Positions 30,870 to 34,250 of a stretch of DNA of 64,000 nucleotides are shown piece by piece (position 1 is the stretch's first letter; every line of letters begins with the position of its first letter). Made by a program: the position numbers and the translations under genes. The stretch is from positions 186,001-250,000 of the forward strand of contig NZ_CP018092.1 in assembly GCF_002754935.1 (NCBI RefSeq), in the 5' to 3' direction. Origin of the DNA: Thermostichus lividus PCC 6715 (GTDB lineage: Bacteria > Cyanobacteriota > Cyanobacteriia > Thermosynechococcales > Thermosynechococcaceae). Under the pieces are notes generated by a model. The model was not told where the DNA came from. It made no database searches and saw only the letters and a program-made list of their open reading frames with translations.

Positions 30870-33800
30870 ATGATGGTGCAAAACCCCCCTCGCCCCCAGA
30901 CCACTTTCCCCGTTAATGCAGCCACCGCCTATCCCGTGTTCTACCGTACCTACAGCCGCCAAGATGACGCAGGACAGCGGGAAAGTTGGCAGCAGGTCTG
31001 CGATCGCACCATCCAAGGCTTAAAAGAGGTTGGCCATCTCACCCCCGATGAAGTTGCCCTACTCAGCCAAATGCAACGGGAGCTTAAAGCGCTGCCATCA
31101 GGGCGGTGGCTGTGGGTCGGGGGTACCGACTGGGTAAAGCGCCCCGAGAACTACTCCGGCGCCTATAACTGCACCAGCACCAACGTCGTTGACTGGGACT
31201 CGTTCGGGCTGATGATGGATTTGGCGATGCAAGGGTGCGGTACGGGTGCCGTCCTTGAGCATAAATACATCAGCCAATTGCCTCCTATCCGTAATCGCCT
31301 GGATATTGACGTGGTGGGCACCATTGGAAAAACGCCGAAAGCCCAGCGCCAAGACTGCACCACAGTCACCGTTGAGGGTAGCCACGTTCACATCAAAGTA
31401 GGCGATAGCCGCCAAGGATGGGTTAAATCCTACCAAACCATCCTTGAGCTATCCAGTGACATGCAATTTGATGGACACGTTACCATTACCATCGACATTA
31501 GCGATGTCAGACCCACAGGAGAGCGCTTAAAAGGCTTTGGTGGCGTAGCTAACCCCGTCAAACTACCCGACCTCTACCATCGCTGTGCTGCAATTTTGAA
31601 TGCTGCCCTTGGTCGCCAACTTACCTCAGTAGAATGTTGCTTGCTCATTGATGAAGCAGCAACCGTGGTCGTTGCTGGAAACGTGAGGCGCAGCGCAGGT
31701 ATGCGTCAAGGGGACAGCAATGATGCCGAGTTTGCCGCCGCCAAGCAAAACCTATGGCAGCAGGATGAACAGGGGAACTGGTTTATTGACCCCAAACGCG
31801 ATGCCTTACGCATGGCCAACCATACCCGCGTCTTTCATCGCAAGCCAACCTTACAGGAATGCATTGAAGCAGTACGCAGTCAGTTTTATAGTGGCGAAGG
31901 GGCGATCCAGTGGGCAGGGGAAGCCGTCGCCCGTGCTAACGCCGATATTCTCACTAATCCAGACCTCAAACACCGCTTTTTGCGTGCCTATGACACTGGA
32001 CAAGCAGACTTGCTCTTGCGTCAGTTAGCCCCCAAGGCAGATGAACGGGAAATCAACCACCGCCTTGGTCGCTATGGCCTGAACCCATGCGTTACCGCCG
32101 AAACTTGGATTCATACAGGCGACGGGCCGCGGCAAGTCAAGGATTTAATTGGTCGTCAACACAGCACCTATATCAACGGCGAACTCTTCAGCACTACACC
32201 GGACGGCTTCTTTTTTACAGGTATTAAACCCGTTGTCAAACTGCAAACCAAGGCAGGGTTTTCCCTTCGCCTCACCCCGAATCACCAAGTCCTAAAAGTT
32301 ACGGCCCAAACCCAGCAAAAACAATACAGCGAATGGGTCGAAGTTGGTGAGTTGCGACCGGGGGATTGGGTTTTGCTCCATAACCATCGAGGGATTCAAC
32401 CTTGGGATGGGATAGGAACGGCAGCGGAAGGTTGGCTACTGGGGAGCTTATTAGGCGATGGCAGTTTAGGGACAACTCAATGGCGTGATATTGGGCTACT
32501 GCGATTTTGGCAAGAGTCCCGTGTGGAACTGAGCCAATACGCGCGGGAATTACTAGCTACGGTGGTAGATTATCGAGCTCGCGCTGCGGCGACCTATGAA
32601 CACAAAACCCTGAACCATCAGGTGATCAACTCCACTGGCCTAGCCCAGTTAGCAGCGAAGTTTGGCTTAAAGCCCGGTCGTAAGGTCATTACGCCAGCGA
32701 TTGAACAGGCCAGTTATGAGTTTTACCAAGGTTTTTTACGGGGCTTATTCGACGCTGATGGCAGTGTTCAAGGTAGCCAAGACAAAGGCGTGAGTGTTCG
32801 CCTATGCCAAAGCAACCTCGAAACCCTCAAAGCTGTGCAGCGAATGCTAGCCCGCTTGGGGATTATTGCCACCATCTATCAAAATCGGAGGCCAGAAGGC
32901 TTGCGGTTACTACCTGATAGTCAGCGGCAGCCGAGCCTCTACCACTGCCAATCTCAGCATGAGTTAGTAATTAGCCAAGATAATTTGCTCCATTTTCAAG
33001 AATTGATCGGATTCCAAGAGCCAACCAAGCAGGCTAAACTCCAGAAACTCTTGAGTGGCTATCAACGGCAACTGAATCGGGAACGGTTTGCGGTAGTAGT
33101 GGAAGCGATTACGCCTGATGGAGAAGCTGCCGTTTACGACTGCTCTGTGCCCGGCCCGAATCGGTTCGACGCCAATGGCTTAGTGGCTCACAACTGTGGT
33201 GAGATTATCTCTGCGGATTTCCACTGCAACCTCTCAGAGATTCATCTCAACCAAATTGACCCTGCGGATACAGTGACCCAAGCAAACGCCTTCAAAGCAG
33301 GAGCCATCTCCGTAGCCGCCTTATTGCACCATCGTTTTGAAGTAGAACGCTATCGCTATGCCCGTGAGTTAGACCCTATTGTTGGCGTTAGCTTCACCGG
33401 ACTATTCGACTTTTTCGTTCATGCCTTTGGGACGGCGTGGCTAGAGTGGTGGGCACAGGGACGACCGGACACTCCGCAGGGTCAATTTTTCAAAACCCAA
33501 GAGGCCAGCTACTTGCAACGCTGGCGGGATATTGTTCATGCTGCCGTATGGGAGTATTGCGATCGCCATGGCTTAAAACGACCGAACCGCTGCACCACCG
33601 TGCAACCCGCTGGCACAAAGTCTTTACTCACTGGGGCATCCCCTGGCTGGCATCCCCCCAAAGCACAACGCTTTATCCGCCGCATTACTTTCCGCAAAGG
33701 TGACGCTGTTGCGATGGCCTGCTATGACTACGGCTATAACATCATCCCATCGCAATCGGATAAAGATGAGCAGGGCAAACTGTTGGATGACCCCTTTGAC

Positions 33801-34250
33801 CCGCGCTGTACCGAGTGGCTCGTTGAAATTCCTGTCGCCGTTTCCTGGGCAGACCTGCCCGGCGCAGACGCGATCGACATTAGCCAATTTTCTGCGCTGG
33901 CTCAATTTGACTTTTATATGCAAGTGCAGCAGCACTACACCACCCACAACACCAGTGCCACGATTGAGTTGCGGGAGCACGAAATTGAACCATTGGCCAC
34001 CGCCATTTATGAGGCCATTCAGCAAGATCAGGGCTATATCTCTGCGGCATTATTAGCACGTTTTGATGCTAATGAAACCTTCCCGCGATTGCCCTTTGAA
34101 CCCATTAGCAAACAACGGTATGACGCAGAAGTGGCGGCAGTCGCACAACGGCGGCGGATCCATGATTTCCATGCGGCATTATCTCGCTACACGCAACCGA
34201 TTGAAGAGGCAGGCCCCGCTGGCTGTGACTCTGATAAGTGCCTGAAGTAG
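30870..34250 (+). CDS. nrdJ: NrdJ, adenosylcobalamin-dependent ribonucleotide reductase with intein
   Basis: A 1126-residue precursor of a class II (B12-dependent) ribonucleotide triphosphate reductase, the enzyme supplying DNA precursors. The exteins total 757 residues. Family features are GSGRWLW-like PSGRWLWVGGTDWV, YNCTSTNV, AMQGCGTGAVLEH, and the active-site NPCGEI motif, which is split by the intein between Pro406 and Cys776. The C-terminus ends GCDSDKCLK: Cys1119 and Cys1124 form the CX4C swinging-arm pair that re-reduces the active site. No cobalamin riboswitch consensus was found in the 150-bp leader. Activity depends on splicing. Confidence 0.93.
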   Translation: MMVQNPPRPQTTFPVNAATAYPVFYRTYSRQDDAGQRESWQQVCDRTIQGLKEVGHLTPDEVALLSQMQRELKALPSGRWLWVGGTDWVKRPENYSGAYNCTSTNVVDWDSFGLMMDLAMQGCGTGAVLEHKYISQLPPIRNRLDIDVVGTIGKTPKAQRQDCTTVTVEGSHVHIKVGDSRQGWVKSYQTILELSSDMQFDGHVTITIDISDVRPTGERLKGFGGVANPVKLPDLYHRCAAILNAALGRQLTSVECCLLIDEAATVVVAGNVRRSAGMRQGDSNDAEFAAAKQNLWQQDEQGNWFIDPKRDALRMANHTRVFHRKPTLQECIEAVRSQFYSGEGAIQWAGEAVARANADILTNPDLKHRFLRAYDTGQADLLLRQLAPKADEREINHRLGRYGLNPCVTAETWIHTGDGPRQVKDLIGRQHSTYINGELFSTTPDGFFFTGIKPVVKLQTKAGFSLRLTPNHQVLKVTAQTQQKQYSEWVEVGELRPGDWVLLHNHRGIQPWDGIGTAAEGWLLGSLLGDGSLGTTQWRDIGLLRFWQESRVELSQYARELLATVVDYRARAAATYEHKTLNHQVINSTGLAQLAAKFGLKPGRKVITPAIEQASYEFYQGFLRGLFDADGSVQGSQDKGVSVRLCQSNLETLKAVQRMLARLGIIATIYQNRRPEGLRLLPDSQRQPSLYHCQSQHELVISQDNLLHFQELIGFQEPTKQAKLQKLLSGYQRQLNRERFAVVVEAITPDGEAAVYDCSVPGPNRFDANGLVAHNCGEIISADFHCNLSEIHLNQIDPADTVTQANAFKAGAISVAALLHHRFEVERYRYARELDPIVGVSFTGLFDFFVHAFGTAWLEWWAQGRPDTPQGQFFKTQEASYLQRWRDIVHAAVWEYCDRHGLKRPNRCTTVQPAGTKSLLTGASPGWHPPKAQRFIRRITFRKGDAVAMACYDYGYNIIPSQSDKDEQGKLLDDPFDPRCTEWLVEIPVAVSWADLPGADAIDISQFSALAQFDFYMQVQQHYTTHNTSATIELREHEIEPLATAIYEAIQQDQGYISAALLARFDANETFPRLPFEPISKQRYDAEVAAVAQRRRIHDFHAALSRYTQPIEEAGPAGCDSDKCLK
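32088..33194 (+). mobile_element. Intein with LAGLIDADG homing endonuclease inside nrdJ
   Basis: Codons 407-775 (369 residues) form an in-frame intein. It begins with Cys407 (CVTAETWIHTGDG), the splicing nucleophile, has a block-B-like LRLTPNHQVLK and ends VAHN with Asn775, followed by Cys776 as the +1 extein residue. Two dodecapeptide motifs of a DOD-type endonuclease are seen: LLGSLLGDGSLG near 520 and LRGLFDADGSVQG near 625. All key residues for splicing and DNA cleavage look intact, so it may be both active and mobile. Confidence 0.92.

Follow-up and report, generated by a model that had tools for sequence, protein, structure and literature searches.

What this locus asks is how a ribonucleotide reductase can work with an intein placed immediately ahead of the cysteine that carries its chemistry, and why a mobile element should have settled at that codon. 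The gene, nrdJ (30870..34250, + strand), is a single open reading frame for a precursor of 1126 aa, intein included. A profile search matches this frame to TIGR02505 (RTPR) at 765.7 bits (cut-off 340.05), and the active-site cysteines are present, which corresponds to a monomeric adenosylcobalamin-dependent NrdJ of the RTPR type; the frame also holds a C-terminal GCDSDKC. The N-extein (residues 1-406; 30870..32087, +) ends in GRYGLNP, with Pro406 at position -1, and the C-extein (33195..34250, +, stop included) starts with CGEIISADFHC. Between them lies an intein of 369 aa (32088..33194, +), its Cys1 encoded by codon 407 at 32088 and its Asn369 by codon 775, which ends at 33194, with Cys776 next. 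The junctions read GRYGLNP/CVTAETW upstream and FDANGLVAHN/CGEII downstream (here and below a slash marks the point of insertion). A first-pass annotation had placed an intein splitting NP/CGEI at 32088-33194, and the reading frame, the profile matches and the insert-free orthologues of the genus show these coordinates to be exact.

Counted on an alignment with the L. leichmannii enzyme (PDB 1L1L), residue 408 pairs with Cys776 and residue 419 with Cys786, the next active-site cysteine. We take residue 408 of that enzyme to be its thiyl-radical cysteine and residues 119/419 to be its redox cysteine pair. The earlier identification of Cys776 by family alignment, as +1 extein residue and radical cysteine at once, thus stands. 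A thiyl radical on a finger-loop cysteine is described, in the accessible part of PMC9531940, for every biochemically characterised reductase. Within the C-extein, a perfect 16-nt inverted repeat (33253-33268 and 33473-33488, with 204 nt between) may be there by chance; the other repeats in the gene, this pair excepted, are chance-like. No RNA family at its Rfam gathering score and no tRNA was found in the window, i.e., the whole 64-kb stretch of DNA analysed.

The host genome (2.66 Mb, single contig) holds one NrdJ place by protein search, and profile searches of it returned no class I or dimeric class II reductase (PF02867) and no class III reductase (PF13597). PF02867 is blind to the monomeric type, so that these negatives cover other kinds of reductase only, and NrdB lay outside the search; in control genomes, PF02867 matched in 11 of 14 and PF13597 in 6 of 14. 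NrdJ is probably essential to the host, and since no PF02867 or PF13597 reductase was found in the genome, some splicing has to occur: NrdJ that stays unspliced, its finger loop split by 369 residues, should leave the cell unable to make dNTPs. That the gene is instead dead, its intein no longer splicing and another reductase doing the work, is hardly credible, as the frame and the splicing residues are intact, neither profile finds that other reductase, NrdJ has a single place in the genome, and no evidence in favor of it was found.

The insert itself reads as a class 1 intein with an endonuclease. Residues 407-775 match LAGLIDADG_3 (PF14528, E 1.2e-24) and Intein_splicing (E 5.7e-12). When the intein is aligned with 15 relatives (53-69% identical), C1, T63 and H66 of the TPNH motif, D351, the penultimate H368 and N369 are invariant (16/16), and a +1 Cys is found in 89 of the 89 relatives readable to their end (among the best 80 of 95 named-genome loci and 12 viral loci). 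All the sequence features of class 1 are thus found together (Cys1, T..H, Asp at F:4, a His-Asn end and +1 Cys), and the F-block His position is Asn358 here and variable in the family. Class 3 inteins are those without a nucleophile at position 1 and with Cys at F:4 (PMC4031507, accessible text); this assignment was rejected, because Cys1 is present and F:4 is Asp351, Cys coming only at the next residue. Two LAGLIDADG motifs, with acidic D124 in 16/16 and D224 in at least 90% of the aligned inteins, identify a homing-endonuclease domain. An AF2 model of the intein, used for fold only (mean pLDDT 83.6, the last residues averaging 49), resembles the intein-endonuclease structures 7qsu and 1dq3; 1DQ3, which we take to be a reductase intein (PI-PfuI of P. 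furiosus), is the third-best fold match. An AF2 model of the whole precursor has a pLDDT of 68.4 and drops under 50 around each junction (residues 403-452 and 753-783), and we therefore claim no distance or geometry from it.

The explanation that we favor, with a probability of about 0.8 for the whole of it, is that nrdJ was invaded, at the junction of codons ahead of the radical cysteine, by a mobile class 1 intein that carries a LAGLIDADG homing endonuclease and splices out constitutively. Cys1 would initiate an N-to-S acyl shift, the N-extein would pass to the catalytic Cys of the host acting as +1 nucleophile, Asn369 would cyclise, and the NP-C peptide bond would then be made and the enzyme restored. 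The thioester, branched intermediate and Asn cyclisation of class 1 splicing are predicted here from the motifs of the intein. As for splicing in this strain, we infer it despite the proline at -1 because it is needed, no other kind of reductase having been detected. One thiol would accordingly complete splicing and then perform catalysis, with an inactive precursor in between, a point which the first-pass annotation had made and with which both the sequence and the known mechanism agree. Counted in support of a mobile intein are the junctions, the motifs, the endonuclease domain, a patchy presence, and members of the same intein family at this position in dimeric NrdJ genes and on viral contigs. 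The NP/C site would be favored because the protein is invariant there and the DNA nearly so (which matters for homing), because an insert lost imprecisely would leave a ruined enzyme, and because the +1 cysteine is a residue that the host can never change. In other proteins as well, inteins occupy conserved and often catalytic positions (PMC2814812, accessible part).

Within the genus (11 genomes), eight genomes have no insert in nrdJ (two adjacent matches, frames of 760-787 aa, one of the eight with a stop in the matched frame), one (G001) has an insert at GNVRR/S only, one (G003) combines a GNVRR/S intein with an eroded 290-aa intein at NP/C, and only the host genome has a full-length NP/C intein. 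Read at the DNA level, seven uninterrupted orthologues of the genus run through the site as NPCGEI or NPCGEV types with no insert. Their empty sites equal that of the host at 45-50 of 60 nt (10-15 differ), which leaves current homing unsupported, and the GC content of the intein (51.3% vs. 54.9% and 53.0% for the exteins) shows a slight deficit that lends no support to a recent arrival. Judging by its motifs, the endonuclease would be expected to cut empty alleles and to home in this strain. A search of 386 genomes of the phylum gave intein matches in 38 (E up to 1e-8), with site and gene differing in some, and one genome of the same family as the host (G303) has the intein.

The relatives considered here comprise the best 80 of 95 named-genome loci and 12 viral-contig loci, or 92 in all. 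Asn-Pro stands ahead of the insert in each of these 92, and a His-Asn/Cys end in each of the 89 readable ones, the remaining three being frameshifted (two) or cut by a contig edge (one). Family profiles were used to sort ten C-exteins whose motifs are unusual: L103, L104, L117, L118, L122 and L128 (from cyanobacteria, proteobacteria, an archaeon and Desulfohalobiaceae) and the viral L138 match dimeric NrdJ types best, with scores under the whole-protein cut-offs because C-exteins alone were scored, and for the remaining viral ones L141 and L142 match RTPR only (107 and 129 bits), and L143 scores too low to be placed (39 bits). A quick tree of the 92 rows (SH-aLRT support only, several long branches, host labels mostly from flank motifs) groups the inteins by type of host gene, with the minimum possible 3 changes over 4 labels. 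Eight inteins in cyanobacterial dimeric NrdJ (two from one genome) lie on one side of a branch with an SH-aLRT of 99, 69 rows in RTPR stand beside them, and four viral-contig inteins group with one from Nostocales in a clade. In 11 loci whose host gene is not a cyanobacterial-type RTPR, 9-13 of the 15 nt that encode NPCGE are the same as in the gene studied here. The intein family would thus appear to have moved between deeply separated reductases at one boundary, and viral contigs with an nrdJ intein are possible carriers between hosts. An nrdJ-type gene with this intein was seen on viral contigs L135-L143 and L146, with a second intein at FH/C in L136, L137 and L146.

The same part of the enzyme is interrupted in many other cyanobacteria. 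A C-extein search finds nrdJ in 143 of 386 cyanobacterial genomes, of which 72 were retrieved because they were interrupted or had an odd frame length (L147-L218, with L219 outside the sample), 70 were called uninterrupted from the listed frame length alone (742-908 aa), and the remaining one is the host. Inteins at NP/C are present in 26 of the 72 fetched genes (27 of 143 counting that of the host) and divide into 20 of family A, five of them shortened to 290-316 aa, and seven of a second family, 26-30% identical to the intein of the host. The FH/C position, before the next active-site cysteine, carries inteins in 24 of the 143 genes, and 12 genes have inteins before both active-site cysteines; a further 32 inteins lie at GNVRR/S and four at QPSG/T. 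Non-coding insertions at CG/EI, two codons past the intein boundary, occur in 21 of the 72 fetched genes, none of which also has an NP/C intein. If the 99 C/S/T residues of the reference enzyme were equally open to four randomly placed intein sites, the probability of at least two falling before the three active-site cysteines would be 0.004, or 0.012 with the two C-terminal cysteines added, both values being rough and framed after the sites were known. A single boundary used by two dissimilar intein families, an intein before the next cysteine and non-coding insertions nearby amount to a strong convergence of mobile elements on the RNR radical cysteine, and the insert studied here looks like a mobile class 1 intein at a much-invaded site, ordinary in kind.

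Several other features of these genes were seen along the way. The CG/EI insertions (L156, L160, L166, L174, L199 and 16 other loci) were considered as group I introns, which have been reported from N. punctiforme (PMC12702839, accessible part, citing Meng et al., 2007); in nine loci carrying such an insertion Rfam gave no match to it at gathering score, and two pieces tried gave none at E up to 1, and we thus call them insertions only. Group II introns match other nrdJ insertions in L204 (after residue 122) and L164 (near residues 83-88), and a HEARO RNA lies near nrdJ at L160:2016-2242 (-), with 139.8 bits. Eight single-site FH/C inteins are without the usual His-Asn end (L171, L176, L179, L191, L193, L195, L206 and L210), five having Gly-Asn and three Gly-Gln. 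Gloeomargarita-type genomes have nrdJ in two pieces (L211 and L290 in G249; L215, L291 and L292 in G095; also L037, L106, L109 and L129), with the N-half at 1.11 Mb and the C-half at 1.83 Mb in G249, halves about 87 kb apart in G095, and a C-half that begins about 33-42 residues ahead of the catalytic Cys.

The proline at -1, absent from the first-pass annotation, sits uneasily with constitutive splicing. It is found in 92 of 92 related loci (best 80 of 95 plus 12 viral) and in 7 of 7 NP/C inteins of the second family, against none of the 70 inteins sampled from other genes (37 Tyr, 25 Gly, 8 Glu). These 70 are 30 loci returned and 40 hand-picked for unusual frame length among the matches listed for an N-terminal intein profile, a sample biased to genes which, from their motifs, we take to be DnaE, GyrB, DnaB and RtcB-like. 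Such a proline is described as incompatible with splicing, with step 1 disrupted in the NrdJ-1 intein (PMC13123727, accessible portion), and this counts against constitutive excision. A rival reading sees in the proline an intrinsic brake, which would slow the N-to-S acyl shift, perhaps with a strong temperature dependence, so that a precursor pool delays NrdJ maturation; both the distribution of the proline and the NrdJ-1 result point that way. We consider this unlikely, since the NPC motif of the enzyme itself demands Pro, which makes its conservation uninformative on regulation, and since fast splicing would be selected in an enzyme that is probably essential.

The preferred reading is therefore one of tolerance. 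As a Gly follows the Cys in NPCG hosts, the catalytic Cys is the sole possible nucleophile at the motif and the -1 proline is forced; NP/C inteins then either tolerate it or mature slowly. Given an enzyme that the host can probably not do without, we hold tolerance of the -1 proline to be the probable case. A bolder version, to which we would give somewhat less than even odds, is that they form a natural class splicing efficiently across -1 Pro, through strain or a direct attack of the catalytic thiol on the Pro-Cys1 bond, no other nucleophile being available in NPCG; the radical cysteine of the host would then have shaped the chemistry of the intein, and step 1 may be a built-in rate control on the sole reductase detected in the cell. 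If the proline is tolerated, intein tools could find wider use, and a host active site would be dictating the chemistry of its parasite. A literature search, with subscription papers largely outside it, returned nothing on the NrdJ intein of this host or on -1 Pro at NP/C. A natural comparison for the -1 proline was seen in L054 (1501 onward), where an intein ending in TGQ precedes a catalytic-type cysteine as NL/C, with Leu at -1, in a gene that by sequence alone looks like a class I reductase.

The first-pass annotation had also suggested a redox or metal brake that would gate dNTP supply; in such a scheme, oxidised or metal-bound Cys1 and Cys+1 would stall splicing under stress. Cysteines do stand at both 1 and +1, any Cys-dependent intein is oxidisable in principle, and DnaB inteins are inhibited by oxidants and zinc (PMC6195587 and PMC7360933, accessible parts of both). 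Yet the last 40 residues of the N-extein hold no Cys, and no partner cysteine is conserved family-wide. Among the 16 aligned inteins, C245 is found in that of the host only, and C287, in the endonuclease half, in 15; C352, adjoining the F-block Asp, occurs in 76 of the 89 readable relatives (of the best 80 of 95 plus 12 viral) and missing in 13, all non-cyanobacterial or viral; and Cys1 and Cys59 are the only cysteines of the entire L118 intein. Sought as a family trait in cysteine conservation, the brake thus found no family-wide support, and these patterns make a family-wide disulfide switch unlikely, although a strain-specific one may exist. Overall we regard the gate as very improbable: of the interpretation first given to this locus, the dual-duty thiol survives by inference, and the redox or metal brake is without sequence support.

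Among the closest known systems is the Thermococcales class II reductase intein (NF006207/PRK08332), which shares the boundary of the host's NrdJ intein. The model aligns with this intein to position 1241, and position 1242 aligns with the first Cys of several C-exteins, so that the intein contained in NF006207 lies at this boundary too. That intein differs in being archaeal and in a dimeric NrdJ, and its similarity to the host's is weak (73.3 bits). Splicing of the Thermococcales/P. furiosus reductase intein, and of those of Pyrococcus abyssi, has reportedly been studied by others. The NPC motif of a reductase also hosts the intein NrdJ-1, whose native exteins are NPC and SEI; it differs in being split, in lying one residue later, so that Ser is its +1 residue and the catalytic Cys takes the -1 position, and in its intolerance of -1 Pro (PMC13123727, accessible portion). 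The Aquifex aeolicus NrdB intein is likewise a LAGLIDADG intein in a reductase active site with a +1 Cys, but it interrupts the small subunit at a point flanked by iron ligands, with Leu at -1, and is a reported aid to iron loading (PMC8772380, in the part available). DnaBi1 of Mycobacterium smegmatis is a class 3 mini-intein with an experimentally demonstrated Cys48-Cys118 disulfide switch; as here, its +1 nucleophile is an active-site residue of the host. In mycobacterial DnaB, the P-loop Ser serves as the +1 residue and as a Mg ligand (PMC6195587, accessible part, for both points), and thus sets a precedent for the double duty of one host residue.
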